The position numbers and the translations under genes were made by a program. From an uncultured Anaerolineae bacterium (GTDB lineage Bacteria > Chloroflexota > Anaerolineae > Anaerolineales > Villigracilaceae), in contig CAIMZS010000519.1 of the NCBI GenBank assembly GCA_903846015.1, forward strand, positions 1-36,366: 36,366 nt of DNA, in the 5' to 3' direction. This document shows, in pieces, positions 3,357-25,060 of the stretch. The stretch's first letter is position 1; each line of letters opens with the position of its first letter. The notes below the pieces were generated by a model, which was not told the origin of the DNA, did not search any database, and worked only from the letters and a program-made list of their open reading frames with translations.

Positions 3357-4259
3357 TTAACCTGGGTTTAGTGCGCTAATTAACTGCCACATGGTCCAAT
3401 TAACAGGCGCAGAGACACCCCGCGATTGTCCTGCGCGAACGACTGCCCCACAAATGGCATCGATCTCAGTGGGGGCGCCACGTTTTACATCTTGAAACAT
3501 CGATGAGCGATTGGCGGCAGTGCGACGCGCTACGTCCTCCACAACTGAAACTGGGTTGCTAAAAGGCAGACAAATGCCGAGCGCCGAAGCCACATTTGCG
3601 GTCTCACGAGCCAATGCATCCATGACAAGACGAGCAGCAGGCTTTTCGAGCAGGGCCCCATTTGGCACCGATAGTAAAGCTGTAAGCGGGTTAATAGCTG
3701 TATTGATCACTAATTTCCCCCATACCAACATATTGGCATCAGAGACAATTTCCACATTTAACTGGGCGGCACGCAACAACTGATAGAGTGAGTTAATGGC
3801 AGGATGCGCCTCCAATGAGATAAGCCCATCACCACCCATGCGCGCCAATCCCGGACCGAGCAAGGTGGCCCCGGTGGTGGTGACGCCCAACGCCACGCGC
3901 CCGCCACCAAGCTGCTGTGAAAGATATTCGCGATTACCCAGTCCATTCTGCAAGGTGACAACGAGGGCTTGCTCCGGCAGGTATCTCTGAAGTTGATCCG
4001 CCACGCGTGCCGTTTGCCAGGATTTGACCAACACCAGCACCAGGTCTGCATGCCCGCATATCGATGCGTCGCTGCTAGCAAGAACGGGGGCAGTCAATAT
4101 ACTACCATCAGCCATCAACAGCCGAGCGCCACTGCGGTTGAATGCTTCAATGGCATTTTGCCATGTGCCCAGGATACTTACACTTGCGCCAGAAGCGGCC
4201 AACCGCGCCGCGAAAAAAGTCGAAAGTGCGCCAGTTCCTACGATGAGAATATTTTTCAT
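3357..4259 (-). CDS. panE: 2-dehydropantoate 2-reductase (ketopantoate reductase)
   Basis: A 300-residue NADPH-dependent reductase that converts 2-dehydropantoate to pantoate in pantothenate/CoA synthesis. It starts with a Rossmann GTGALS nucleotide-binding turn (residues 8-13). It has the family VKSWQT segment near 95, the catalytic Lys in WGKLVINTAINPLTA, and the C-terminal EIDAICGAVV block that carries the substrate-binding Glu. The ATG at 4259 follows AAAAGG. A GTG at 4274 overlapping the panB stop is an alternative that would add five residues. It lies 11 bp after panB in the same operon, so consecutive steps of the pathway are encoded together. Confidence 0.94.
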   Translation of the reverse strand: MKNILIVGTGALSTFFAARLAASGASVSILGTWQNAIEAFNRSGARLLMADGSILTAPVLASSDASICGHADLVLVLVKSWQTARVADQLQRYLPEQALVVTLQNGLGNREYLSQQLGGGRVALGVTTTGATLLGPGLARMGGDGLISLEAHPAINSLYQLLRAAQLNVEIVSDANMLVWGKLVINTAINPLTALLSVPNGALLEKPAARLVMDALARETANVASALGICLPFSNPVSVVEDVARRTAANRSSMFQDVKRGAPTEIDAICGAVVRAGQSRGVSAPVNWTMWQLISALNPG

Positions 4260-5551: not shown

Positions 5552-5782
5552 ATGAGAAGAATGTTTGGGTTTTTGATCGGGGTTTTTGTGGGTTGGTTGG
5601 TTGGATCAACCATTGCTCTGCTGTTGGCGCCTGAATCTGGCGAAAAATTGCGCGGTCAACTGCGCTCACGCTCGGGCAATTTCATGGGCGAGGTAAAATC
5701 CGCCGCCGATGCCCGCCGCAAGCAGTTGGAAGACCAGTTGGCAACCATGCGCACGCCGCGCAGCGCCAGCAGAGTGGATTAA
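5552..5782 (+). CDS. YtxH-like small membrane-anchored protein
   Basis: A 76-residue protein with an N-terminal glycine-rich membrane helix (about 4-28, FLIGVFVGWLVGSTIALLLA) followed by the PESGEKLRGQLR signature of the YtxH (general-stress / gas-vesicle-like) family. A charged, probably helical tail runs to the C-terminus. The start at 5552 is preferred because AAGGAG lies seven bases upstream; an in-frame ATG at 5525 has none. Family members are short membrane-tethered coiled-coil proteins linked to stress responses, but their biochemical role is unclear. It is transcribed alone, divergent from panB and convergent with the following glycosylase. Confidence 0.8.
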   Translation: MRRMFGFLIGVFVGWLVGSTIALLLAPESGEKLRGQLRSRSGNFMGEVKSAADARRKQLEDQLATMRTPRSASRVD

Positions 5783-5791
5783 CGCTTCAAC

Positions 5792-5858
5792 CCTGTGCAG
5801 GACAGTCAAGGCATAAGGTAAAGTATCCCGGTTTCTGCACAGGATGGTTCTTGCCTTG
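5792..5858. repeat. Two interlaced inverted repeats between convergent genes
   Basis: CCTGTGCAG (5792-5800) pairs with CTGCACAGG (5835-5843), and CAAGGCA (5807-5813) pairs with TGCCTTG (5852-5858). The arms are interlaced in A-B-A'-B' order. They lie between the convergent YtxH-like and YcaQ-like genes, so a role in ending transcription is possible, but there is no clean U-tract. Confidence 0.4.
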
Positions 5859-5873
5859 CACTTGCCGGGCAAA

Positions 5874-7124
5874 TTACAAATACCATTCTATGGCTCGCGC
5901 CAGCTTGTCTCCAAATTCACCCGGGACGCTTTTTTCGATCAACAGGTCTGTCGCATGGTGGAAGCGCAAAAAATCGCACATCGCCCCGGCCACGTCAGCC
6001 ACCAACTGTTCATCAGGTTGGATGCCCGGCTCAAGGTAAAGCGCCTTGATGCGCAGCAGACCAGTCTTGCGCTCCAGCTTGGGATCGAAGCGCCCGACCA
6101 GGCGATCTTTGTGCAGAATGGGTAAACAGAAATAGCCGTAAACACGTTTTGCTGCCGGGTAATAGGCTTCGAGGCGCTGGCGGAATCCCCAGAAGGCCTC
6201 GTCGCGCCCCTGGGCCCACCACAAATTGTCGAAAGGGTTGATGAATGTGGTACGCTGAGGACTTAACGCGTTGGCAGCCGCCTTTTCCAACCAGGGCAGG
6301 TTGTCAGAATGAATCAGCAGCGTTGTAACGCCGTTCAATGTCTCCCCCTGTACCTCTAATAGTGCTCCTTCTTTAATAAGCGCTGCGATCAGTGGGCGGG
6401 CCTTGGTCAGCTTCATCCAGGTATAATCGGCAGAATTGCGCGGCAAGCTAATTCCCAACGCCCGCGCACCGCATTCCAGCCACGTGCGATCGCGTTCGAT
6501 CATGGTAGGCTCAGTTGTATCAACCCAGGTGGGTAGCACGCGTTCTGTCAAATCGTAGACACGCTGAAACTTAAGACGTTTTGAGATCATCAATTGGCCA
6601 AAGCTGTAAAGATGCTCAAGGGCCATCTTTTCCGGGCGCCAGTTCCACCACGTGCCGTGTTTGAGTTTTTCACCTTCGATGCTGCTGGCGCGTAGTTCAC
6701 CCTCACTGCGGATGCGCTCCAGAATTTCCTGCATTAACACCAAATTACCTGGCTGGCTGGCCCATTCCGTGTACCAGCGGTGACCATTCTCACGCAGGTG
6801 ACGCTGGAGCGGTATCTGGTATCGATATTCGCGCAACGACACAAAACACGCCGCATGGTACCAGCCTTCGAAAACAAGCCGGATGAGCGGATCATTGGCC
6901 AAACCATCAAAAAGAACCGGATCATAACTGCCCAGTCTGGACCACAACGTGACATAATGTGCCCGGGCAACCATCTGGAGCGTATCAATCTGTACAGCGC
7001 CGAGACGTTCAACCATTCCAAAAATGGCATCCTGCCCAGGTGGAGTCTGCCCGATGTTGGCCTGGTCAAGACCGGTGGCATGCAAGGCCAACGCCCGTAA
7101 AGCAGAGAGCGGGTAAATGGTCAT
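5874..7124 (-). CDS. YcaQ/AlkZ-type winged-helix DNA glycosylase
   Basis: A 416-residue member of the HTH_42 superfamily (crosslink-repair DNA glycosylase YcaQ, AlkZ/AlkX). Near the N-terminus, LGAVQIDTLQ carries the Q-x-D catalytic motif that the family uses to activate water for cleaving damaged or crosslinked bases. It is followed by the conserved HYVTLWSRLGSYDP segment. Later blocks (INPFDNLWWAQGRDEAFWGF and KRVYGYFCLPIL) also fit the family. The ATG overlaps the stop of the upstream dihydrouridine synthase by four bases (ATGA), so it is the last gene of an msrA-dus-glycosylase operon. The substrate (interstrand crosslink or alkylated base) cannot be told from sequence. Confidence 0.88.
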   Translation of the reverse strand: MTIYPLSALRALALHATGLDQANIGQTPPGQDAIFGMVERLGAVQIDTLQMVARAHYVTLWSRLGSYDPVLFDGLANDPLIRLVFEGWYHAACFVSLREYRYQIPLQRHLRENGHRWYTEWASQPGNLVLMQEILERIRSEGELRASSIEGEKLKHGTWWNWRPEKMALEHLYSFGQLMISKRLKFQRVYDLTERVLPTWVDTTEPTMIERDRTWLECGARALGISLPRNSADYTWMKLTKARPLIAALIKEGALLEVQGETLNGVTTLLIHSDNLPWLEKAAANALSPQRTTFINPFDNLWWAQGRDEAFWGFRQRLEAYYPAAKRVYGYFCLPILHKDRLVGRFDPKLERKTGLLRIKALYLEPGIQPDEQLVADVAGAMCDFLRFHHATDLLIEKSVPGEFGDKLARAIEWYL

Positions 7125-13683: not shown

Positions 13684-14544
13684 TCAGTAAATTAATTCCC
13701 CATGCTCATCCAAATATCCAAAACGTTTCATCACTGCAGCGTGATCGATGATCAATTTCTGCGCCAGTTCAGGCGTCAATTCCTCGCGCCACGAACCAAC
13801 CTGTCCCTTGCGAAAGAATGAATCCGACCCGGGCAGCTTCTCGCCGAAGCCATGTTCAACCTCCTGCTTCTGCGCATCAGCAAATTGTGAAAAACGCACG
13901 GCTTTTTCAATACGCCTCGGGTCATTTTCCAGCCCGCAAAAGCGAATCACATCGCGGAAACCCGCCAACGTATCGGCCTTCAGGTCTTCATAGCGCACCA
14001 CCAACACGCGCAGACCGGGTTCATCCACCCAACTGGTGACGTGCCCCCCCCAGGTCAATAGTTTTTGGCGCAGCTGGTTGTGCAGGCGTTGCGGCTTATC
14101 CACAAAAGCAAAATCCGCTTCGCCCATCTTGCGCACAATCCGATCCACCGTAGAGGCACTGTAATGAGCAAACGAGACGGCCACATCCAGCGGATTGCGC
14201 AGCAGGTAGATCACACCGGCGGTGGCCGCTTTGGAAATGAGCGGGTAACCGTAGGGGGTGTAAGTAAAAGCATCGTGAACCTTGAGAAAAAGCGGCTCTT
14301 TAGCATGCTCCGACATCTGCTCATAAACAAAGGGCCGGTAGCGTTCGATCTCATCATGAGTTAGGTCGGAAGCCTCGAGGCCGACATTATCATCGAAGGC
14401 TTCTCGTGCGCTGGCGATCGGCCCGCCATCCAGGCTGTTGATGTCGGCGGGGTCTTGTGCATCCCGTAGATAATTAGTGAGCAAGATGCGCATCCAGGTG
14501 TTGCCAGATTTTGGGTAGGAAGCCAACCAATAGATGTTACCCAT
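13684..14544 (-). CDS. PAPS-dependent sulfotransferase, in lasso-type cluster
   Basis: A 286-residue cytosolic sulfotransferase-fold enzyme that moves sulfate from PAPS to a hydroxyl or amine. The 5'-phosphosulfate loop is YPKSGNTW at 10-17. FLKVHDAFTY (87-96) has the Lys/His pair expected at the active site, LLRNPLDVAVSFAHYS (114-129) matches the 3'-phosphate site, and RKGQVGSWREEL (245-256) is the family's C-terminal RKGxxGxW motif. It begins one base after the stop of the HPr-kinase-like gene (TGACATG), with GGAGG inside that gene, so it is tightly coupled to the cluster. Its substrate is probably the cluster product, but a polysaccharide or small molecule is possible. The longer upstream frame is a shadow of the kinase gene. 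Confidence 0.93.
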   Translation of the reverse strand: MGNIYWLASYPKSGNTWMRILLTNYLRDAQDPADINSLDGGPIASAREAFDDNVGLEASDLTHDEIERYRPFVYEQMSEHAKEPLFLKVHDAFTYTPYGYPLISKAATAGVIYLLRNPLDVAVSFAHYSASTVDRIVRKMGEADFAFVDKPQRLHNQLRQKLLTWGGHVTSWVDEPGLRVLVVRYEDLKADTLAGFRDVIRFCGLENDPRRIEKAVRFSQFADAQKQEVEHGFGEKLPGSDSFFRKGQVGSWREELTPELAQKLIIDHAAVMKRFGYLDEHGELIY

Positions 14545-14545
14545 G

Positions 14546-15448
14546 TCACACCTCCGCCAGGTCTTGTTCAATCCGATCAGCCAACTCGGTAAGGCGGAAT
14601 GGATGCGACGGACGTGTGACTCGCGTGACACCGCTCTGTTTGGCAACCGCAGCCGCAAGCCCAAAGTGTGGGGCGCGCATCTCCAACCCATCCAGAAACT
14701 GCTGGCGATATGTATTGTGCAGAACAATGCTGAAGGTGTGAATACGCGGCATCGGATCCAGTTTGATTTCATCCCTGTTTGCGGATGTCAGCAAATAGAT
14801 GCGGCGCAAAGATGCGGGCTGATCCCAGAATGAATCGGTCGCCTGGCGTTCGTATTTTTCCATTGTGGGACGGGTACGCTCCATGATGCTGATGTCCTGC
14901 TCCAACTTATGGGCGGCATCGCTCCACAAGCGTGTGCGCGGGTAACCTGGCAAAACGAGTGGAAGACCATCCGAGTCCAGCGTCACCGCACAGACATCAT
15001 CAACCATCATCTTGTAGCCACGCCGCATCAACTCGCCCAAAATGGTACTCTTGCCGCAACCCGAATGACCAGTGAACAACACCGCGCCCTGCCCGGTATG
15101 AATTGCCCCGGCGTGGATCACCAACAATCCGCGTTGGTGCAGGAGCGCCCCAATACACGAGCCGAGCAAAAAGACACGCATATCGCTTTCCAGGCTGTTC
15201 ACGGCCGGCTCAACGATAATCTCGCTCCCGTTTTGAACCAGGTAACGCGCCACATCGTTCAAGCTCAGAAGGAACTGATTGGCAGTGGCCTGATACAGCA
15301 CACCTTTACCGGTCACATTTTCGAGCGCGGCAGGTACAACCCCGTGACGGATATTCACATCCGGTACACCTGGGTTATCATCTTGAGTGAATTCAGGGAT
15401 GGGAAAATCGGATTGAATGTTGAGTTGGTAGGCTTTGTAGTGATGCAT
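14546..15448 (-). CDS. HPr-kinase-like ATPase/kinase of lasso-type clusters
   Basis: A 300-residue protein of the HprK-related group found in RiPP clusters. The N-terminal half (1-100) has no clear motif. It then has IHAGAIH (111-117), a P-loop GHSGCGKST (127-135), VDDVCAV with two Asp (149-155), and GYPRTRLW (168-175), as in HPr kinase-like ATPases with a rigid P-loop. In paeninodin-type clusters a related kinase phosphorylates the C-terminal residue of the precursor. That role is only an inference here because the precursor is not found. It follows the nucleotidyltransferase by 23 bp and is coupled to the sulfotransferase. Confidence 0.87.
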   Translation of the reverse strand: MHHYKAYQLNIQSDFPIPEFTQDDNPGVPDVNIRHGVVPAALENVTGKGVLYQATANQFLLSLNDVARYLVQNGSEIIVEPAVNSLESDMRVFLLGSCIGALLHQRGLLVIHAGAIHTGQGAVLFTGHSGCGKSTILGELMRRGYKMMVDDVCAVTLDSDGLPLVLPGYPRTRLWSDAAHKLEQDISIMERTRPTMEKYERQATDSFWDQPASLRRIYLLTSANRDEIKLDPMPRIHTFSIVLHNTYRQQFLDGLEMRAPHFGLAAAVAKQSGVTRVTRPSHPFRLTELADRIEQDLAEV

Positions 15449-15471
15449 AGTTTTAGAATTGTCCTATGAGA

Positions 15472-16749
15472 TTAACTTGACATTAACCAATCACGCAGTT
15501 CGATGATTTGATTGACATTCTGGGCTATTGATCGCGTTTGCGGGTCTCCGCGCCCCAGATGCCATAAAGAAACGCCATAATGCACGATTAATTCGGTCCA
15601 GCGTACGGGATAATAAAAATAGATGCGCCAGGCGGTGGCTGAGACAGGATACTTGAGGGCCATTATTTCACGCGCAGGCAGCAGACGCTCTCGAATCAAA
15701 GCCAGTTTGCTTCCCAAATCCATTGATCCTGACAATCGGGCCAGGTGGCTCGATTCATGCATGGCGATTGGCGTGCTGCCCCGTTCTGCAAGGATTTGCT
15801 GCCGGGCTAACGCCAGGTAATTCTCATTGAAGTTCTCTGGCTGTAGGGATTGAAGCCAATCTAGTGGCACACCCGCACACAGCAGATCATGCGCCAGTTG
15901 CAAAACCACATATAGTGCGCGAACCGCTCCCCATTGCCGGGCGCGTTCGCCTACTACCTGCCAATCGAGATTCGCTCCGAAACGGCGCAAGACTTCGCCA
16001 ACATCGCACAACATCCGCAGACGCATTTCGTAGTCATCGTGCAGATCATACGCGTGCAAAACAACATGCAGGCAGAGGTGCAACAACAAATCTTCCGGAG
16101 AGAGTGCAAAGGCGGAAGCCTGTGCCAGTGATATGTGCTGCGCCCTGCTCCACAATCCATCCACATCTATACGAAGGGGAAGGCTTTCATCAAAAATCGT
16201 CCAGTGAATTTCTACCCGAAACCTGCTTCCCGGCCGTTTGTAGGAAAAGTGATGAATATCCGGTATTACCACGCGATTGGTGTCATCGGACATATAACCG
16301 CAGGCCAGGAGTACCTGTTCAACGCTCAGCAAATCCTTTTTTGCCACCAGTAAGTCAATATCCCTCATCGTCCGAAGCCCGATCTGATCGTAAACGGCCT
16401 GTGCCAAATAAGCGCCTTTGAGAACAATGACCGCAATGTCCTTATCCTGGAAAAGTCCCAGAAGATTGTTTAACTCCAGATAGAGGCTCATTATTTGCAG
16501 AGTGTTCTTGCGTTGTTCGCGCATTAATTCCTGGGTCAGGTCATCAGGCAGTGTCACATTTAATTGTTGAAGGCGGTAATTAAGCAGGGCAACAAGATTA
16601 TGCGATTGCGCCAGGGCCACAACCTGATGATATTCATCTGCCAACACGCGCGCGAGTCGCTCTTTAGTAACACTTCCATTCTCGTAGCTGAGGCAGGTTA
16701 GAAGTATGCTGGTCGCATCTACAAGCATTGGCTGCTGCACTTGATTCAT
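15472..16749 (-). CDS. NTP_transf_5 family nucleotidyltransferase-like protein
   Basis: A 425-residue member of the putative nucleotidyltransferase family that accompanies lasso and related RiPP genes and polysaccharide loci. The catalytic-type motif is VLKGAYLAQAVY (109-120) followed by RTMRDIDLLV (126-135), with Asp130 and Asp132 as the likely metal ligands. A helical C-terminal region follows, with HxxxH-rich parts (LLLHLCLHVVLHAYD). The start at 16749 overlaps the B2 stop by four bases (ATGA), so a longer upstream frame is a shadow. What it transfers is not known. Its presence with the kinase matches paeninodin-like tailoring sets. Confidence 0.87.
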   Translation of the reverse strand: MNQVQQPMLVDATSILLTCLSYENGSVTKERLARVLADEYHQVVALAQSHNLVALLNYRLQQLNVTLPDDLTQELMREQRKNTLQIMSLYLELNNLLGLFQDKDIAVIVLKGAYLAQAVYDQIGLRTMRDIDLLVAKKDLLSVEQVLLACGYMSDDTNRVVIPDIHHFSYKRPGSRFRVEIHWTIFDESLPLRIDVDGLWSRAQHISLAQASAFALSPEDLLLHLCLHVVLHAYDLHDDYEMRLRMLCDVGEVLRRFGANLDWQVVGERARQWGAVRALYVVLQLAHDLLCAGVPLDWLQSLQPENFNENYLALARQQILAERGSTPIAMHESSHLARLSGSMDLGSKLALIRERLLPAREIMALKYPVSATAWRIYFYYPVRWTELIVHYGVSLWHLGRGDPQTRSIAQNVNQIIELRDWLMSS

Positions 16750-17213
16750 TGCCCGAATATCCCTACAGTTCCAAACTGGCGATGCCCCGCACCGCCAGTA
16801 ACGTAGAGGGGCCCGCACCGCAGCCAGGCATGCGCCTCCAATTCGGTGCGCGCTTTAAAAGCTGCGCCCAAGTAAAGCGTACTGGGGATATCCTTGCGAC
16901 GCAAAAGAGTTTTAGCGGCGATGGCCTGCGGAAAACAGTTACTCTTCCAGGGTGTATAACAGCTGGCGGTCTGCACTGCCCAGGCGATACGGCGCGCCTC
17001 AGCCAGGTGCTCCGCTGTTTCTTCGGCAGGCGTCTCGAAACCGGAGGTACCCAACGATTTAACGATGACATGGAATGTTATGGTGTTAATCCTCAGGCGC
17101 GCCATTCCCAGAAGGATATATGCTTCAATAAAGAGCCATTGATCCCGCCACGAACGGGTAATGAAATGACGCGCACGTTCCATGAAAGATTTCGAGACCG
17201 GAGCAGGGTTCAT
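16746..17213 (-). CDS. Lasso peptide biosynthesis B2 protein (leader peptidase)
   Basis: A 155-residue transglutaminase-like Cys protease of the Transglut_core3 / lasso B2 family, which removes the leader from the precursor. The putative nucleophile is Cys93 in WKSNCFPQA, and the base is His128 in EAHAW. The third triad residue is not obvious: the stretch after HAW is LRCGPLYVTGG. An N-terminal region of about 80 residues is mostly helical (DQWLFIEAYILLGMARLR). AAAGGA lies about seven bases before the ATG at 17213. The gene follows the cyclase by 29 bp and overlaps the nucleotidyltransferase by four. Confidence 0.92.
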   Translation of the reverse strand: MNPAPVSKSFMERARHFITRSWRDQWLFIEAYILLGMARLRINTITFHVIVKSLGTSGFETPAEETAEHLAEARRIAWAVQTASCYTPWKSNCFPQAIAAKTLLRRKDIPSTLYLGAAFKARTELEAHAWLRCGPLYVTGGAGHRQFGTVGIFGQ

Positions 17214-17242
17214 ACAAATTCCTTTATAGAGCAGGGTGTAAG

Positions 17243-19153
17243 TTACAACGCTTTTGGGGTGACAAAAGCCAACCAACGACCGTTCCCAGCATTCCTTTGT
17301 GCCCGCAAACGGCTGCGCTCGATCTCTGACAGATTGTCATCCGCCACCCGGGCAACCTGCTCGGCATCCAATGCCGCTTGTAATTGGGCAACATCCACAT
17401 AGGGATTATCCTTTCGCGCCGAAAGTTCCGTCCTTAGTTGCTCTTCGGCTGCTTTGTGTATGCTTACCGATCCCCGAATCATAGCAGGATCTTCCTTCAC
17501 TTTTTGCCAACGCAGATGATCGGGTAGAATTCCTTGCATGGCGGTGCGATAGAGGTAACGCTTCCAGCCGTTCTTGAAAAAGAGATAATCTGGAATACTC
17601 AGGGCAAACTCCACGATGCGCCGGTCAAGCAGGGGAAAAACGTAACTGATGCCAAGCGTAGCACCGTGACTCGCCCAGGATTCCATGCGATAACTGAGGT
17701 GACCATAATTTAATAAAGCGATCTGAGTGTTCCTTACGCCAGGAAGCTTATGCGCATCTGTCGTGGGCATTGACTTTACACCCAACAGGGATGCGGCAAA
17801 TTCAGGACGCAGATAACCCGACAGAGGCGGCGGAGGTGGGTAATCCTTGGGCCGAAGACGTTTCAAGATGGGAATCGGCAGCAACGGGAGCAGGCCATCG
17901 AAAATCCATTGTCTCCAAACCACGCCGCCATGCAATTGGACACGCAAGCTAATCTCACGCTGCAAGGTCAACCAGCGCCCGCGCATCAGCAGATCGGGAA
18001 AGTAACCACGTCCGTTGAAGGTCACAAGCTCGTCGCCACCCCAACCTGAGAGCAGGGTGCGAATTCCCAAGTGCGCGGCTTCTTCACTGGCAGCCAGTTC
18101 AGCTAGCAGGGTAGTAGTAGGCTGCAGGGTGATATCGCGGCGAGCGTGGGCCAGAACGTGGTCCGGGCGAAGATTTGTATAACAAACGGTCATGCCCTCG
18201 GCGGCGCGTACCTCCTCCACCAGTTTGCGCTCATCATTTGGGAGCAAATCCGCTGGATCGTTGGGCAAGGGCGGAGCCCACGAGAAACCGGTAAACGAAC
18301 GGGCCTCTTTTTGTAAAATGCGATGCGCCAGTACGGCGACACTTGTAGAATCCAGCCCGCCCGTAATGTGCGCGCCGATTGGGTAGGAACTCGCGACCCG
18401 GCAAGCCACAGCTTCGTGTAAGAGGGCGAGTAGTTCTTCCACGTAGTCGCTTTCGTGCGCATAGCGCCGTTCAGGAGTTTGACCCGGCTGCCAGTAAGAC
18501 CAGAGTCTCAAACCGTTTTTGTCCAGCGTCAGAGCATGAGCAGGTGGAAGTTTTTCAATAGCCTGGTAATAAGTGTGCTCCGGGCGCACGACCTGGCGCA
18601 CTGTCGTCTGCAAGGCAACAACGACAAATGGTAGGTCGAGTTCCATCGGCACATCAGGGTGGCTGGCCATCGCCAACAAGTCACTTGCAAAAACCATGCG
18701 GCCCGAAACGTGGTAATAATAAAAGGGCCGTGTGCCAATGAAGTCACGCGCGCAGAACAGCCGCGCATTGGCTTCGTCCCACAACGCAAAAGCGAAATCG
18801 CCCAATAAGTGAGAGGCGCAGTCTGTGCCCCACTTTTGGTAGGCGTGCAAAATCAGATCGGAATCATCAAGGGCAGCGCCTTCCGCGGCAGTCATCCCAA
18901 ATGCGATGTACAGTTCACGGCGGTTGTCAAGACGCACATCTGCGATGATGGTGGGACCGCCATCAATTGGGAGCGCAGCGGAATGTTCGCCTCTGGAATG
19001 AATGCCAAAAACACCGCCCGACAATTCTCGCAGTAAGTGGGAATCCCAAGGGTAACTCCCGAGCGCCGCCATCATGCAGGCAACCTTCTGCTTTTCGGCA
19101 TCAACCTGTTCGCGTGTATTAGCTGGATTAATACTGCCGTAGATCATCCGCAT
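17243..19153 (-). CDS. Asparagine-synthetase-like lasso cyclase (C protein)
   Basis: A 636-residue homologue of asparagine synthetase B. In lasso pathways this enzyme adenylates an Asp/Glu side chain of the core and closes the macrolactam on the N-terminal amine. The N-terminal amidotransferase-like domain (1-200) keeps VRLDNRREL and LGDFAFALWDE but starts MRMIYGS, so it lacks the Cys2 needed to hydrolyse glutamine, as expected for a cyclase. The PPi-loop is TGGLDST (264-270), a variant of SGGxDS. LLSGWGGDEL lies in the synthetase part. AAGGA precedes the ATG. The gap of 153 bases to B1 contains the 65-bp hairpin repeat. Confidence 0.9.
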   Translation of the reverse strand: MRMIYGSINPANTREQVDAEKQKVACMMAALGSYPWDSHLLRELSGGVFGIHSRGEHSAALPIDGGPTIIADVRLDNRRELYIAFGMTAAEGAALDDSDLILHAYQKWGTDCASHLLGDFAFALWDEANARLFCARDFIGTRPFYYYHVSGRMVFASDLLAMASHPDVPMELDLPFVVVALQTTVRQVVRPEHTYYQAIEKLPPAHALTLDKNGLRLWSYWQPGQTPERRYAHESDYVEELLALLHEAVACRVASSYPIGAHITGGLDSTSVAVLAHRILQKEARSFTGFSWAPPLPNDPADLLPNDERKLVEEVRAAEGMTVCYTNLRPDHVLAHARRDITLQPTTTLLAELAASEEAAHLGIRTLLSGWGGDELVTFNGRGYFPDLLMRGRWLTLQREISLRVQLHGGVVWRQWIFDGLLPLLPIPILKRLRPKDYPPPPPLSGYLRPEFAASLLGVKSMPTTDAHKLPGVRNTQIALLNYGHLSYRMESWASHGATLGISYVFPLLDRRIVEFALSIPDYLFFKNGWKRYLYRTAMQGILPDHLRWQKVKEDPAMIRGSVSIHKAAEEQLRTELSARKDNPYVDVAQLQAALDAEQVARVADDNLSEIERSRLRAQRNAGNGRWLAFVTPKAL

Positions 19154-19180
19154 GACAATAATTCCTTGATTTTGCCCGTG

Positions 19181-19245
19181 GCCGTGCTAGCGATAGTCCC
19201 GGCTCCCGCACGGGGCACCGGCACTATCGCAGAACCGGGTACCAT
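19181..19245 (+). repeat. 65-bp hairpin repeat, copy 1
   Basis: Identical at 64 of 65 positions to 22349-22413, in the same orientation; the single change is at its 27th base. Internally GCGATAGT pairs with ACTATCGC, with a C-C mismatch and then CCGG paired with CCGG around a CCCGCACGGGG loop, and it ends in GGTACC. It sits between B1 and the cyclase in the minus-strand operon, so it would also form an intercistronic hairpin in the mRNA. Confidence 0.92.
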
Positions 19246-19306
19246 AGATTGAAGGCGGAAAAACCATTTGTATGACGGGATGGTCCCAGTTTCTGCATGG
19301 GATCGA

Positions 19307-19612
19307 TTATTTTGAGGCAAATCCGTCCAGCACACGGATCAATTCATCGTTCAACATTTCGTTTACAAACGCCAGGGTTTCGCGTTCACAAGTTTCCTGG
19401 TCAACGTCATACTGGGTACGCAAGCGAACGCACACTGCAGCGATGGGGCAAGGCTCAACCAGTTGACTCCAAATTTCTTTAGCGGTTTCCGCCATGCCAT
19501 AGTAGGAGCCGCGTTCGATATTCAACATAACCAATTCAGTCGCGCTTAGTTCCGATGTCATCAGATCAGTGCGGCGAGCGATGACGGTATCGAGGGTAAT
19601 TGCTTCATTCAT
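19307..19612 (-). CDS. PqqD-like RiPP recognition element (lasso B1)
   Basis: A 101-residue PqqD-family winged-helix protein that binds the leader of a RiPP precursor and presents it to B2 and the cyclase. It has the family's N-terminal beta strand (DTVIARRTDLMTSEL), the LNIERGSYYGM turn, TAKEIWSQL, and the C-terminal helix block (CERETLAFVNEMLNDELIRV). The start is set at 19612 (MNEAITLD), with GTGGAG about nine bases upstream; an in-frame ATG at 19705 has no ribosome site. It is the first recognisable gene of the minus-strand cluster and is preceded by a promoter at 19811-19839. Confidence 0.9.
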   Translation of the reverse strand: MNEAITLDTVIARRTDLMTSELSATELVMLNIERGSYYGMAETAKEIWSQLVEPCPIAAVCVRLRTQYDVDQETCERETLAFVNEMLNDELIRVLDGFASK

Positions 19613-19742
19613 GCCAGGTTGCTCCACGATGCAAATGATCGAGTAATTTTTGTTGCGATATGACCACAGATTGACCATGCTGACCAGGAATACAAAAATG
19701 CGCATGAGAAAATCAAGAACATAAGCAATCCCATGCTCCGTG

Positions 19743-19782
19743 GCCGTGCTAGAACCGGCACTATCGCAGGAACCGGGAGTAC
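19743..19782 (+). repeat. Deleted copy of the 65-bp repeat
   Basis: GCCGTGCTAG is joined directly to the right half of the repeat (ACCGGCACTATCGCAG, one extra G, then AACCGGG), as if the central 26 or so bases had been lost. A shorter match, CGGGCACTATCGCAG, lies at 19927-19941. Confidence 0.7.
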
Positions 19783-19810
19783 AGGTTTATTTTTCCCGAT
19801 TTTACATATA

Positions 19811-19839
19811 ATTATAAAGTAGTAAAGCCGTCTTCGCAA
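19811..19839 (-). promoter_or_regulatory. Probable promoter of the lasso-type operon
   Basis: On the minus strand: TTGCGA (19839-19834), a 17-bp spacer, then a perfect TATAAT (19816-19811). Transcription would start near 19804, giving a leader of about 190 bases before the B1 ATG that includes the deleted repeat copy. No other promoter as good is visible upstream. Confidence 0.65.
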
Positions 19840-19844
19840 TGCAA

Positions 19845-20055
19845 GACGTTATCAACGTCACGGCTTTCTTAAAGTCACGACTTCAAATTCTTTATTCACA
19901 GATCACAGATTACGGCCCTGCGAAAACGGGCACTATCGCAGATTTTCAAGAGCATTTTAAGGTCAAAAGCAAGAAAATACTCAGGCATCACGGTAAAAGT
20001 ACGTTTTGCATTGTGATGCAATGACTTTAAGAAAGTCCTGTTGTCAACGTGTCAG
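19845..20055. repeat. Inverted-repeat-bounded segment (MITE-like)
   Basis: CTTTCTTAAAGTCA (19864-19877) recurs as its reverse complement at 20022-20035, and the similarity extends imperfectly outward over about 30 bases on each side to GACGTTATCAACGTC and GTTGTCAACGTG. Each arm also forms local hairpins (GACGTT-ATC-AACGTC at 19845-19859, TTGCAT-TGTG-ATGCAA at 20006-20021, GACTTT-AAG-AAAGTC at 20023-20037). No transposase or target duplication was identified. Confidence 0.5.
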
Positions 20056-20119
20056 GAATGGATATCAAAAAAAGGATAAACATGCCAGCGCTCTTTTGGA
20101 GATGCATGGAAATTGTATT

Positions 20120-20145
20120 GTTTAACCCTTTAAACGCGGTTAAAC
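20120..20145. promoter_or_regulatory. Operator-like inverted repeat upstream of rtcB
   Basis: GTTTAACC (20120-20127) and GGTTAAAC (20138-20145) form a perfect 8-bp inverted repeat with a 10-bp spacer. The arms are 18 bp apart centre to centre, which suits a dimeric regulator. It lies 130 bases before the rtcB ATG. Function is inferred only from position and symmetry. Confidence 0.35.
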
Positions 20146-20203
20146 TTTTAAGTAGATTGACCTAAAAGTATTGTGAGGCTGCTGCAGAGTTCTTCCATGC
20201 CCG

Positions 20204-20220
20204 CGCAGAACCGGGTACCA
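20204..20220 (+). repeat. 17-bp fragment of the 65-bp repeat
   Basis: CGCAGAACCGGGTACCA is identical to the right end of the repeat copies at 19181 and 22349. It is followed by the palindrome AGCGATCGCT and lies about 55 bases upstream of rtcB. Confidence 0.65.
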
Positions 20221-20275
20221 AGCGATCGCTACGGACTTTGCAAAAAAACAAGTTTTTTAGACAGGGAATAACACT

Positions 20276-21451
20276 ATGAAAGCAATTGATGGAATACCAA
20301 TCTGGGGCGATCCGATCGATGAATCTGCGCTTACGCAGATCAAGAACTGCGCACGCAGCGCAGATGCGGCAGCATTGATGGCTGACCACCATAAAGGCTA
20401 TTCCGTCCCAATCGGCGGGGTGTTAGCTTACAGCGAACACATCAGCCCATCGGGAGTAGGTTTTGACATTGCATGCGGAAACAAGGCGGTTTTAACCAAT
20501 ATCCCGGCTGTCGATATATGCGAAAATATCGACAGGATCATGGATCAGATATGGGATACACTATCCTTTGGAATCGGGCAGCACAATAATACCCGCGTGG
20601 AGCATGCATTATTTGACGACCCCACCTGGAAACTACGGGCGATGGCTCCACTCAAACAGGTTGCGCGCGAACAACTTGGCACGATCGGCTCTGGAAACCA
20701 TTATGTTGACCTGCTGGAAGATGAGCAGGGCCGTACCTGGATCGGTGTGCACTTTGGTTCGCGCGGGTTGGGACACAAAACAGCCAGCTATTTTTTGGAG
20801 GCTGGCGGAGCAAAGGACGGCATGGATGTGGATCCACTGCTGCTATCGGTGAGCTCAACCCTGGGGTCGGAATACCTGGCTTGTATGGAATTGGCCGGGC
20901 GTTACGCCTATGCCGGGCGAGACTGGGTCTGCGCCAAGGTGGCGCATTTGTTAGGAGCAAAAATTCTGGATGAAGTGCACAACCATCATAACTATGCCTG
21001 GCGCGAACGCCACAACGGGCAGGATTTGTGGGTCGTGCGCAAGGGCGCCACGCCAGCCTTCCCCGGGCAACGCGGATTTGTGGGCGGATCAATGGGTGAC
21101 ATCTCGGTGATCATCGAGGGTGTCGATTCGGAAGAGTCGAAAACAGCTCTGTATTCAACCGTTCACGGGGCTGGTCGTGTGATGAGCCGCACCGCCGCGC
21201 GTGGAAAAATCAATCGCAAGACCGGGCAGATCATCACCCCGGGGGCAATCTCGCGTGATATGATGATGACATGGGTGCGCGGACAGAATGTCGAATTACG
21301 CGGCGCAGGCACCGACGAAGCGCCACAATGCTACAAACGGCTTCCGCAGGTCTTAAAACACCATCAGGCCACTATCCGCATCCTGCACACACTCAAGCCG
21401 ATCGGCGTCGCGATGGCCGGAGAACATGAGATCGACCCTTATAAAGACTGA
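20276..21451 (+). CDS. rtcB: RNA-splicing ligase RtcB
   Basis: A 391-residue Mn/GTP-dependent RNA ligase that joins 2',3'-cyclic phosphate ends to 5'-OH ends in RNA repair or tRNA maturation. Motifs: DHHKGYSVPIGGV (37-49), GVGFDIACGN with metal-binding Cys67, GTIGSGNHYVDL, VHFGSRGLGH with His159, the HNHHNYAW metal site (236-242), QRGFVGGSMGD, and VHGAGRVMSR with His297 as the GMP-accepting residue. It ends EHEIDPYKD. The length is at the short end of the bacterial family. The ribosome site (AGGGAA) is modest. It heads a plus-strand unit with a zinc-ribbon protein and a HAD hydrolase. No archease or RtcA is adjacent. Confidence 0.96.
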   Translation: MKAIDGIPIWGDPIDESALTQIKNCARSADAAALMADHHKGYSVPIGGVLAYSEHISPSGVGFDIACGNKAVLTNIPAVDICENIDRIMDQIWDTLSFGIGQHNNTRVEHALFDDPTWKLRAMAPLKQVAREQLGTIGSGNHYVDLLEDEQGRTWIGVHFGSRGLGHKTASYFLEAGGAKDGMDVDPLLLSVSSTLGSEYLACMELAGRYAYAGRDWVCAKVAHLLGAKILDEVHNHHNYAWRERHNGQDLWVVRKGATPAFPGQRGFVGGSMGDISVIIEGVDSEESKTALYSTVHGAGRVMSRTAARGKINRKTGQIITPGAISRDMMMTWVRGQNVELRGAGTDEAPQCYKRLPQVLKHHQATIRILHTLKPIGVAMAGEHEIDPYKD

Positions 21452-22322: not shown

Positions 22323-22348
22323 CCTGTCGCCATCCAAGCGTGCCCGAA

Positions 22349-22413
22349 GCCGTGCTAGCGATAGTCCCGGCTCCGGCACGGGGCACCGGCACTATCGCAG
22401 AACCGGGTACCAT
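22349..22413 (+). repeat. 65-bp hairpin repeat, copy 2
   Basis: Same element as at 19181-19245 with one substitution (CTCCGGCAC instead of CTCCCGCAC). It lies between the HAD hydrolase stop and the acetyltransferase start and ends 23 bases before that ATG. In the mRNA it would form a hairpin of about 13 bp with one mismatch. Confidence 0.92.
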
Positions 22414-22436: not shown

Positions 22437-23789
22437 ATGATGGATATCAAGAAAAACACCCTTATCCGCGATCTGGGCAACGGATTGGTTTTGCGCTGCT
22501 CCAACCCCGAGGATGCTGAAAAAATTTTTGAATTCAATGCTCTTATTCATGGGGATGATGGCCCGGATGAACGCATCGGCCAATGGGCACGCGACCTGCT
22601 GGAAAAACCCCACCCCACCTTTGGCGTCAATGATTTCACCATTGTGGAAGAGCAGTCCACCGGTCGGATCGTTTCATCACTGAACCTTATCTCTCAAACC
22701 TGGAGCTATGACGGAATTCCGTTCAAGGTGGGCCGCCCTGAACTGGTTGGCACATTGCCTGAATTTCGCAATCGCGGTCTGGTGCGCATCCAAATGAATG
22801 AAGTCCATCGCTGGAGTCTTGAACGGGGGCAACTTGTTCAGGCCATTACGGGTATTCCAAATTATTACCGTATGTTCGGCTATGAAATGTGCGTGGATTT
22901 GGATGGTTCCCGTTCCGGTTTTGAGATGAACCTACCCAAACTTCCTGAAACAGGCGCTGGTAGCACAGGAATGGAGCCGTTTGACTTGCGCCCCGCCAGC
23001 GAAGCCGACATCCCCTTTATAAGCGAGGTTTACCAGTATGCTTCCCGGCGCAGCTTGCTTTCTACCGTGCGCGATGATGCCATGTGGCAATTGGAATTGA
23101 ATGGACGGAGTCCTAACAGCATTGCGAGGCAAATCTGGCACATCATCGAGCGCTGCTCAGATGGTGAACCTGTTGGAATTCTGGCACATCCGTTGTTTTC
23201 GTGGGGAGTTGCTTGCCCAGCACAGATGTATGAATTGAAAGCAGGCATTTCTTGGGCAGAAGTAACGCCCTGCGTGGTACGCTGGTTGTGGAATCTGGGC
23301 GAAAGAGTGTGCGCAAATGAGGGTAAGACACGCTCTGCCTTCACGTTTGCGTTGGGAAGCGATCACCCGGTCTATGAAATCATGCGTGACAACCTGCCCA
23401 GGGTACGCAAACCGTATACCTGGTATATGCGCGTTGCAGACCTGACCAGTTTTATCTGGCACATCACACCCGTGTTAGAGACGCGATTGGAAAATTCGCT
23501 AATCCCGAGGCACAGCGGTGAGATTAAAATCAATTTTTACCGCGATGGACTGCGGCTGGCGTTTAAAGACGGCAAATTGGTAACCATTGAAAATTGGCAG
23601 CCTGACTCAAAAAATGAAGGCGATATTGCCTTTCCAGACCAGGTCTTTTTACAGGCGCTTTTCGGTCACCGCAGCCTGGATGAACTTAAACATGCGTATG
23701 CCGATTGCAGGTGGAACCAGGATGAAGCGCGGGTACTGGTGAACACTCTGTTCCCTCGCAAGGTTTCACAGTTTATGTGTATTTCTTGA
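22437..23789 (+). CDS. Eis-like GNAT family N-acetyltransferase
   Basis: A 450-residue protein. The N-terminal part (about 15-170) is a GNAT acetyltransferase: NPEDAEKIFEFN, a beta-bulge strand FTIVEEQSTGRIVSSL, the acetyl-CoA loop LVGTLPEFRNRGLVR, then ITGIPNYYRMFGYEM. The long remainder fits the second GNAT/SCP-2-like domain of the Eis type (MYELKAGISW in the middle, LRLAFKDGKLVTI and PDQVFLQALFGHRS at the end). It probably acetylates an amine on a small molecule or antibiotic. The ATG at 22437 follows AGGAG; the next codon is also ATG. Monocistronic or co-transcribed with the MFS gene 35 bp downstream. Confidence 0.87.
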   Translation: MMDIKKNTLIRDLGNGLVLRCSNPEDAEKIFEFNALIHGDDGPDERIGQWARDLLEKPHPTFGVNDFTIVEEQSTGRIVSSLNLISQTWSYDGIPFKVGRPELVGTLPEFRNRGLVRIQMNEVHRWSLERGQLVQAITGIPNYYRMFGYEMCVDLDGSRSGFEMNLPKLPETGAGSTGMEPFDLRPASEADIPFISEVYQYASRRSLLSTVRDDAMWQLELNGRSPNSIARQIWHIIERCSDGEPVGILAHPLFSWGVACPAQMYELKAGISWAEVTPCVVRWLWNLGERVCANEGKTRSAFTFALGSDHPVYEIMRDNLPRVRKPYTWYMRVADLTSFIWHITPVLETRLENSLIPRHSGEIKINFYRDGLRLAFKDGKLVTIENWQPDSKNEGDIAFPDQVFLQALFGHRSLDELKHAYADCRWNQDEARVLVNTLFPRKVSQFMCIS

Positions 23790-23824
23790 CTGTTCCAGTC
23801 TCTGCTCGATACCGATGGTGACTC

Positions 23825-25060
23825 TTGAAAAAAATGGACCCAACCAGGCTGTATATTGGCCTGATGTTTTTCAACTCGCTCTTATTCAGCATGATCTTCT
23901 TGGTCACGTCCCTTTACGAAGTCAGCGTGGCTGGCCTGAGCGGCTTGCAGTTAGTACTGGTTGGAACAACGGTAGAAGTGACTATTTTGCTATTTGAAAT
24001 CCCTACCGGGGTGGTGGCTGATGCTTATTCAAGGCGGATTTCGGTCATCATCGGATATTTCATCATGGGCCTGGGTTTTATCGTGGAAGGATCATTCCCT
24101 GTTTTTATTCCAATTTTGCTCGCACAAGTTTTATGGGGAGTGGGTTACACCTTCACCAGCGGCGCAACACAGGCCTGGCTCTCGGATGAGATCGGCGAAG
24201 CACAGGCCAACCGCACATTTTTGCGCGCCAACCAATTCGAACTGGGTGGGGCACTGATGGGGATGTTGGTGGCGATCCCACTCGGGAATCTGGCTCTAAA
24301 CCTGCCAATCGTTTTAGGTGGGTGCGCCATCGCGGGGTTGGCCGGGGTCTTAATGCTGGTCATGCCCGAAAACGGTTTTCACCCTGTCAGTGAGGAAAAA
24401 CGCAATACCTGGCAGGGCATGGCCGCTATCTTCAAAAAAGGGATGAACACAGTCCGTGCCCGCCCAACCTTGCTGGCAATTCTAGGGGTAGGCCTGGTAT
24501 TCGGGCTGTACTCCGAAGGCTGGGACCGGCTATGGACAAAATACCTGGTAGATAATTTTGCCATCCCCAATATTTTTGGGATGAACGCAGCCGCCTTTTT
24601 TGGCTTGCTGCGAGCCGGGGGAATGATCCTTGCCATTCTGGTCACCCGCTGGGTTGAAAAACGATTGGACACCAGCAATCGTTCAGCAATCGCACGCGCA
24701 ATGATGGGATTGACTGCGCTGCTGACAGTGTCTATCATTATGTTTGCATTTTCTCCCGCCCTTGTAGTCAGCATTGGCGCAATTTGGTTGGTGAGCATTA
24801 CCCGCAACGTGATGGCGCCGTTGTACGATGCCTGGGTAAACCAGCGCCTGGATACAGACACGCGCGCCACCGTCATTTCAATGTCAGGGCAAGTTGATGC
24901 CATCGGACAGATAGCCAGCGGGCCGCTGGCTGGCCTGATTAGCCTATGGTCTATTAAAGCAGCGATCACCTGCGCTGGTTTTCTATTGACACCAGCGCTG
25001 CCGTTAATTGCGCGGGTAAACCGGCTGCAATCAGAAGAAAGCGCGCTCAACCAGCCATGA
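23825..25060 (+). CDS. MFS transporter
   Basis: A 411-residue major facilitator with about 12 hydrophobic segments, such as YIGLMFFNSLLFSMIFLVTS at the start and IGAIWLVSI in the second half. The family loop 2-3 motif resembles FEIPTGVVADAYSRR. It is likely an exporter of a drug-like or metabolite substrate. The start is the TTG at 23825 (GGTGA just upstream) or the ATG at 23834, which would remove three residues; I cannot decide. It lies 35 bp after the acetyltransferase, suggesting linked roles, and overlaps the convergent HIT-like gene by 14 bp at the 3' end. Confidence 0.9.
   Translation: MKKMDPTRLYIGLMFFNSLLFSMIFLVTSLYEVSVAGLSGLQLVLVGTTVEVTILLFEIPTGVVADAYSRRISVIIGYFIMGLGFIVEGSFPVFIPILLAQVLWGVGYTFTSGATQAWLSDEIGEAQANRTFLRANQFELGGALMGMLVAIPLGNLALNLPIVLGGCAIAGLAGVLMLVMPENGFHPVSEEKRNTWQGMAAIFKKGMNTVRARPTLLAILGVGLVFGLYSEGWDRLWTKYLVDNFAIPNIFGMNAAAFFGLLRAGGMILAILVTRWVEKRLDTSNRSAIARAMMGLTALLTVSIIMFAFSPALVVSIGAIWLVSITRNVMAPLYDAWVNQRLDTDTRATVISMSGQVDAIGQIASGPLAGLISLWSIKAAITCAGFLLTPALPLIARVNRLQSEESALNQP

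Follow-up and report, generated by a model that had tools for sequence, protein, structure and literature searches.

Does a sulfotransferase gene at the end of a lasso-peptide operon belong to that operon, and where are the peptides that the operon would modify? Both questions are raised by a six-gene operon in a 36,366-nt stretch of DNA from an uncultured Anaerolineae bacterium (contig CAIMZS010000519.1 of assembly GCA_903846015.1; our genome G000), which we refer to, over its whole length, as the window. The operon encodes a PqqD-like recognition protein (B1), an asparagine synthetase-like cyclase (C), a leader peptidase (B2), a nucleotidyltransferase-like protein (N), an HprK-like kinase (K), and a sulfotransferase (ST). 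We consider it likely that this one operon matures three or more unlinked lasso precursors in trans, with proposed phosphate and sulfate steps.

Judged by its proteins, the operon is almost certainly a lasso-peptide maturation system, an assignment that holds because B2 scores above its NCBIfam cut-off, Cys2 is missing from C, and relatives carry lasso-type precursors. B2 matched the lasso B2 model NF033537 at 1.3e-26 and retained its Cys and His motifs (NC and AHAWL) in alignment with relatives; at E 0.001 the genome gave no second PF13471 match. The best-matching model for C was that of the lasso cyclase, NF033535 (1.5e-100; 338/525 bits, below its cut-off), and C was 62% identical to its counterpart in locus L002, 57% in L003, 57% in L006, and 55% in L110. 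Two refuters of the lasso reading had been set beforehand, and the reading survived both. One was the assignment of C to genuine asparagine synthetase, which we rejected because the Cys2 nucleophile is absent (the N-terminus reads MRMIYG and the first Cys is residue 26) and because TIGR01536 reached only 180/267 bits; the other was a consistent lack of lasso precursors beside homologs, and ten of 27 loci with ST have a lasso-conformant precursor nearby. B1 matched the lasso PqqD model NF033536 at 1.6e-19, under its cut-off, and PF05402 over the cut-off; its best match in the PDB was 9x90_B, annotated as "Lasso peptide biosynthesis PqqD family chaperone" (4.1e-13), and TbiB1 matched at 1.4e-7. 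B1 is the only lasso-type PqqD protein in the genome, and the window operon is the sole lasso maturation operon found there. A second PqqD match (L149, contig C647, 1724-3106, minus strand) lies inside a 460-aa protein beside a similar 382-aa protein, and by eye its surroundings look like a radical S-adenosylmethionine-type locus for a ribosomally synthesized and post-translationally modified peptide (RiPP) or for a cofactor.

The 27 ST loci comprise 16 from a set of 78 loci that a genome-contig scan with C had picked independently of ST, 10 from 11 extra loci taken from whole genomes for an ST or C match (and so not independent), and the window. Sorting their precursors by eye, we found a precursor that combines W..P.[hydrophobic] and Thr(-2) with an acidic residue at 7-9 in ten loci (L002, L110, L111, L113, L114, L115 with two, L116, L128, L129, and L131 with two), a similar leader with no clear ring in seven (L004, L007, L008, L020, L065, L067, and L074), and none in ten (the window, L003, L005, L006, L017, L019, L042, L045, L058, and L130, where one regular-expression match was counted and not inspected by eye). 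One frame of L007 would fit Glu9; L004 and the proteobacterial K-ST loci L020, L065, L067, and L074 have a W..P leader but no evident ring acid at positions 7-9 past Thr(-2). Several of the loci L086-L109, from the window's bacterial family, are other lasso-type clusters with precursors of the form YxxPxLxxLGDLRtLTLGGSPGxGDSG.

The preliminary description had counted ST as part of the set, and its neighbor bears this out. Among the 78 loci of the C scan, K was present in 61 and ST in 16, and in 15 of these 16 K lay immediately 5' of ST with both on one strand (11 pairs called by script, the L007 and L008 fusions, and L045 and L074, whose neighboring frames were read separately). Over all 27 ST loci the count was 26, the exception being L006, which has ST and no K match. 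In L007 (4782-6725, minus strand) and L008 (4767-6725, minus strand) K and ST form one open frame of 647 and 652 aa, respectively; these contigs are nearly identical, are filed as Gammaproteobacteria and Gemmatimonadetes, and are counted as one fusion. A tree of 77 K rows required 5 changes of the ST label against a mean of 21.9 when shuffled (0 of 500 shuffles were as low), with four ST labels set by hand and with well-supported branches by themselves forcing just 2 changes; the window K grouped with those of L002, L003, and L110, each accompanied by ST. Records in which the pair adjoins lasso genes come from Chloroflexota, Acidobacteriota, Rhodothermota, Hydrogenedentota, and Pseudomonadota. 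Since an N match was present in just 12 of the 27 ST loci, within the stretches examined, ST does not depend on N. On this gene context, ST is a true partner of the lasso set. A scan of viral contigs with ST as the query found nothing. In L003, which comes from Litorilinea metagenome-assembled genomes, extra ST pieces (3548-3760 and 5710-5970) stand beside a truncated K, suggesting decay or duplication.

The residues expected of both enzymes are retained. In K, H112, K133 (in the P-loop), D150, and D151 were invariant in 16 of 16 aligned sequences and, from their order and motif, would correspond to the His-Lys-Asp-Asp motif of lasso kinases. In ST, YPKSGNTW, K88, H90, R116, S124, and FFRxG....W were invariant in 12 of 12, and we take these conserved motifs to be the 5'-phosphosulfate loop, the 3'-phosphate site, and the catalytic His. 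The AlphaFold2 model of ST (predicted local distance difference test score 88.6) had Teg12 (3mgb) as its best fold match in the PDB, and the genome contains an adenosine 5'-phosphosulfate kinase gene (2.6e-58).

The lasso core had been described as complete. All of the maturation enzymes are there, but no lasso precursor was found in the 36-kb window by eye, by small-open reading frame (ORF) conservation, or by regular expression, and the cluster has no substrate gene; the probable substrates are encoded on other contigs, C392, C210, and C389. A by-eye and small-ORF search of the window and four close relatives gave nothing convincing, pairwise ORF comparison being too noisy, and a regular-expression match in the window (23766-23870, minus strand) was rejected, as it runs over two other genes and is without a partner. 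The way to the substrates led through L110, a locus of genome G068 whose operon proteins are 55-80% identical to those of the window and where, as in L002, the interval from ST to B1 holds the precursor in antisense orientation. Used as the sole query against the window's genome, the L110 precursor matched the C392 and C210 genes, and a profile of four precursors, these two included, added the C389 gene (Table 1). The same profile found three more in G068, two on contig C330 and one on C5, which brings that genome to four precursors on three contigs. In the G068 precursors (C267, C330, and C5) the tail is long, contains two Cys, and ends in CGPS, which suggests a tail disulfide.

The window-type family thus defined has eight sequences, seven of them complete ORFs and the eighth that of L002, whose start is unsure. 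All eight combine a W..P.L leader and Thr(-2) with an acidic residue 7 or 8, and all end in Ser; the leader Trp stands at -17, -16, or -15, with W-17, P-14, and L-12 in three of the eight. Lys1, Glu7, and Gly-Pro-Ser occur in seven of eight, Ser/Thr6 in six of the seven Lys1 members, and Tyr is absent from seven of the eight cores. The C392 and C210 precursors are identical at 37 of 40 leader residues (five synonymous and three non-synonymous codon differences) and at 7 of 14 core residues, which is the usual pattern of a conserved leader and a variable core. Both have open frames, ribosome-binding sites, and common sequence in the region of the ribosome-binding site, with mostly different outer flanks; the C389 precursor is divergent in ring and tail. 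The computed monoisotopic lasso masses are 1447.735 Da for the C392 core and 1896.958 Da for the C210 core. By their sequences all three trans genes look like lasso precursors with Trp in place of Tyr in the leader, and we infer their tie to the window operon, of which they are very probably the substrates. Three Sulfotransfer_1 matches lie at 751-3333 of contig C392, ~18 kb from its precursor gene.

Within the bacterial family, precursor and operon occur together. We searched 152 genomes of the bacterial family and eight further genomes of ST loci. The precursor profile matched three of the 152; one match, in G028 (E 0.002), was dropped because its W-x-x-P-R-M stretch runs antisense over two large ORFs and the rest of the motif is absent, leaving G000 and G068. 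The close operon was likewise found in G000 and G068 alone (150- and 152-genome scans), and the chance that the two would overlap in the same two of 152 genomes is 1/11476. In seven of the eight further genomes no window-type precursor was found, the sole match being the cis gene of L002. A second precursor type of the bacterial family (L111, L113, L114, and the ST-less L112) was present as one gene on the operon contig in four of four genomes, and dispersed precursors are therefore not general; dispersal is a trait of the window's type, in two genomes.

We directly observe the genes, conserved motifs in three of the enzymes (B2, K, and ST), the linkage of K to ST, and a precursor family that goes with the operon in genomes of this bacterial family; we infer every chemical step, the order of the steps, and the service of the operon to these precursors. 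B1 would first bind the C392, C210, and C389 precursors via the leader W-x-x-P-x-L, and K would phosphorylate the C-terminal Ser hydroxyl of the linear precursor. ST would then move sulfate from 3'-phosphoadenosine 5'-phosphosulfate (PAPS) to a second Ser/Thr hydroxyl on that peptide, the best-conserved candidate being Ser/Thr6 beside the ring acid. Subsequently, B2 would cleave after the residue that follows Thr(-2), C would form the macrolactam from residue 1 (Lys1 in two of three) to Glu7 or Glu8 around the tail, and N may extend the phosphate with a sugar, as reported for pseudomycoidin. Phosphorylation of the lasso precursor is probable, and a terminal Ser fits K because all eight members end in Ser, as with the paeninodin kinases. 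We lean, by a little, toward sulfation of the peptide by ST, and Ser/Thr6 as the site is doubtful. A sulfated and/or phosphorylated product, the working hypothesis of the preliminary description, is plausible.

Tyr sulfation was set aside for the window-type group since seven of eight cores have no Tyr, and the sulfate there would therefore go to Ser/Thr or to a group that N adds. The latter would make ST an enzyme that acts on a sugar added by N to the phosphorylated Ser, and not on the peptide, giving a sulfated glyco-phospho lasso. We think this unlikely, in view of the 15 ST loci of 27 in which N was not matched within the stretches examined and of the closest solved sulfotransferases (Teg12, Teg14, and StaL), which act on peptide phenols, even though the window operon has N, the cores largely lack Tyr, and PsmN is reported, in the available text, to add a hexose to phosphorylated pseudomycoidin (PMC8498205, PMC9266682).

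A second alternative is that we are looking at an ordinary lasso operon on its way out, with its own precursor lost or moved and the trans genes left as relics. This would account for the lack of a precursor in the window, for the repeats that entered the gap 5' of B1, and for the divergence of C389; moreover, the related L003 and L006 operons may be decayed, because K is truncated in L003 (which also has the ST pieces) and missing in L006. However, all six operon frames are open, B2, K, and ST retain their catalytic motifs, the C392 and C210 genes keep open frames, ribosome-binding sites, and conserved leaders next to variable cores, and several precursor copies are kept in G068 too, which makes decay a somewhat poorer explanation still. 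Finally, that ST and K act on some other molecule (lipid, polysaccharide, or small metabolite) and are merely co-transcribed with the lasso genes is improbable, for although PF00685 is broad and its 13 matches in the genome make other sulfation likely there, K-ST stands beside lasso genes in five phyla, is fused in one lineage, and has the lasso-kinase residues in K.

Several observations weigh against maturation of dispersed precursors by the window operon. C and K score under their curated cut-offs (NF033535 and Hpr_kinase_C), and visual inspection of the window ORFs of at least 150 aa showed no ATP-binding cassette exporter, a common though not universal neighbor of lasso genes, no family search having been aimed at one. 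Lys as residue 1 is unusual among lasso peptides. The lasso-precursor regular expression found 4 candidates in ten close or middle loci where mononucleotide shuffles gave 10.8 expected, as against 15 with 6.7 expected in the ten loci L111-L116 and L128-L131; since its yield in the former set does not exceed chance, the case for precursors depends on their homology to one another. Outside the bacterial family, the genomes of L003 and L006 (C 57% and ST 75-78% identical) have no detectable window-type precursor, and that of L002 has just the operon-adjacent one; within it, one of the four in G068 lies beside the operon, so that the trans location is partial there; three of the five known close operons accompany the window-type family. 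The genome assembly has 662 contigs and is 5.85% contaminated, and the precursor contigs could be foreign. Their 4-mer correlations to the window (C392 0.95, C210 0.92, and C389 0.95) decide little on contig origin because contigs of other genomes (G130 and G047) reach 0.91-0.94. The C392 and C210 genes lie 286 and 399 nt from a contig end, but the contig of the operon extends at least 13 kb beyond it at each end and C389 extends >11 kb on both sides of its gene, and these are therefore separate places and not one broken locus. The site of K is uncertain because precursors at four other K-ST loci (L115, L116, L129, and L131) have no C-terminal Ser and because BsfK, of the Bradymonas bsf cluster, phosphorylates Ser3 in the available text of PMC10368454.

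All six minus-strand genes are present and placed as first described, and profile searches of Pfam and NCBIfam upheld the families assigned to their products (Table 1). The tight junctions that link ST to the set were found as well: the B2 stop and N start overlap (ATGA) and K and ST are 1 nt apart, with 23 nt between N and K and 32 nt between C and B2. The tight order claimed for the operon applies from C to ST; B1 is set off from C by a 153-nt gap that contains a dispersed-repeat copy. A purine-rich site was seen 5' of B1, B2, K, and ST, the four genes inspected. The gene set recurred in other organisms and is therefore no chance line-up, the nearest loci to the window operon coming from Chloroflexota records. 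The dispersed repeat, with core GGCACTATCGCAGAACCGGG, is present in the window at 19173-19245 and 22341-22413; the core has 46 genome copies at ≤2 mismatches (reversed control: 0). Two partial copies (19754-19787 and 19914-19941) are located 5' of B1. An RtcB-family ligase gene (20276-21451, plus strand) is divergent from the lasso operon.

Table 1. Genes of the window operon, the adjoining gap, and the three candidate trans precursors (positions in the window unless a contig is given).
Feature	Position	Strand	Match or search
B1: PqqD-like RiPP recognition element, leader-binding, 101 aa	19307..19612	-	PF05402 2.3e-16
C: lasso macrolactam cyclase, asparagine-synthetase-like, no Cys2, 636 aa	17243..19153	-	Asn_synthase 4.1e-30
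B2: leader peptidase (Transglut_core3), 154 aa	16746..17210	-	PF13471 3.1e-23
N: PF14907 (NTP_transf_5) nucleotidyltransferase-like protein, 425 aa	15472..16749	-	PF14907 3.3e-58
K: HprK-like lasso kinase, 300 aa	14546..15448	-	Hpr_kinase_C 2.6e-5, under cut-off
ST: PAPS-dependent sulfotransferase, 286 aa	13684..14544	-	PF00685 (Sulfotransfer_1) 3.1e-25
Gap 5' of B1: no precursor found, partial copies of genome-wide repeat	19613..20275	.	precursor and repeat searches
Candidate precursor, 54 aa, core KFLVPSE-GTFTGPS	C392:20986-21150		L110 precursor, E 3.8e-4
Candidate precursor, 60 aa, core KLFSNSE-STILGEHIGPS	C210:400-582		L110 precursor, E 0.002
Candidate precursor, core NNNFFAGE-WTNQSGAKEGTLAS	C389:18977-19165		four-precursor profile, 1.9e-9

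Genome mining for lasso peptides usually starts at a precursor adjoining B and C. Clusters like that of the window would score as precursor-less, and a share of lasso chemistry may therefore be hidden in trans. The K-ST pair, conserved and once fused, marks a tailoring step in several phyla, and the predicted cores with their exact masses make both the trans precursors and the K-ST tailoring directly testable. Possibly, and we propose this tentatively, the products form a group of phospho-sulfo lassos with a seven-residue ring and Lys first, their precursors having Lys1, Glu7, and Gly-Pro-Ser in common and being dispersed by gene duplication and served by a single operon with a coupled K-ST.

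Enzymes of these types have been seen together before. In the available text, a 2014 survey by Letzel reported that some lasso clusters of anaerobes contain an HPr kinase and a sulfotransferase, with an unclear role (PMC4289311), and a 2021 review credits Zhu (2016) with finding, in lasso clusters of Firmicutes, a nucleotidyltransferase and a gene for a putative sulfotransferase (PMC8498205). The preliminary description knew of no characterized cluster that combines K and N with ST. The clusters in these sources, as far as their available text goes, are uncharacterized, but HPr kinase with ST in lasso clusters had already been published. Likened by description, those clusters have the same types of enzyme, and their available text gives no statistics on K-ST linkage, no fusion, and no precursor assignment. 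Paeninodin-type clusters likewise have B1, B2, and C with kinases (PadeK, ThcoK, and SyanK) that carry the His-Lys-Asp-Asp residues, and precursors with a C-terminal Ser, according to the parts available of PMC8498205 and PMC9266682; unlike them, the window has K paired with ST, leader Trp for Tyr, Lys or Asn as residue 1, and precursors outside the cluster. The pseudomycoidin cluster (PsmK and PsmN) also sets a kinase and a nucleotidyltransferase beside the lasso core; ST is not mentioned in the available descriptions of it, and N, a PF14907 member, would be the counterpart of PsmN. The kinase-bearing bsf cluster has YxxPxL at -17 to -12, comparable to W-17/P-14/L-12 in three of our eight precursors, but differs, in its available description, by Ile(-2), Gly1/Asp8, and Ser3 phosphorylation, as opposed to Thr(-2), mostly Lys1/Glu7, and a C-terminal Ser in the window type.

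Teg12, Teg14, and StaL are among the closest solved relatives of ST by sequence and fold (~21-26% identity). They sulfate a phenol on a non-ribosomal glycopeptide, a group absent from seven of the eight window-type cores. In prochlorosin-like systems a single enzyme acts on lanthipeptides encoded by many genome-scattered precursor genes; the likeness lies in one enzyme set with scattered precursors, and the difference in a lasso operon with three or four of them. Within the available text of open-licence PubMed Central papers (PMC9484694, PMC12325987, PMC13352647, and PMC9266682 included) we found no sulfated lasso peptide, and no lasso precursors remote from their cluster, the elements located elsewhere being transporter parts in PMC7280977 and a deiminase in PMC12971885. 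The lasso system of the window is apparently intact and of a known kind, with a conserved K-ST pair and genome-dispersed precursors as its two unusual traits.

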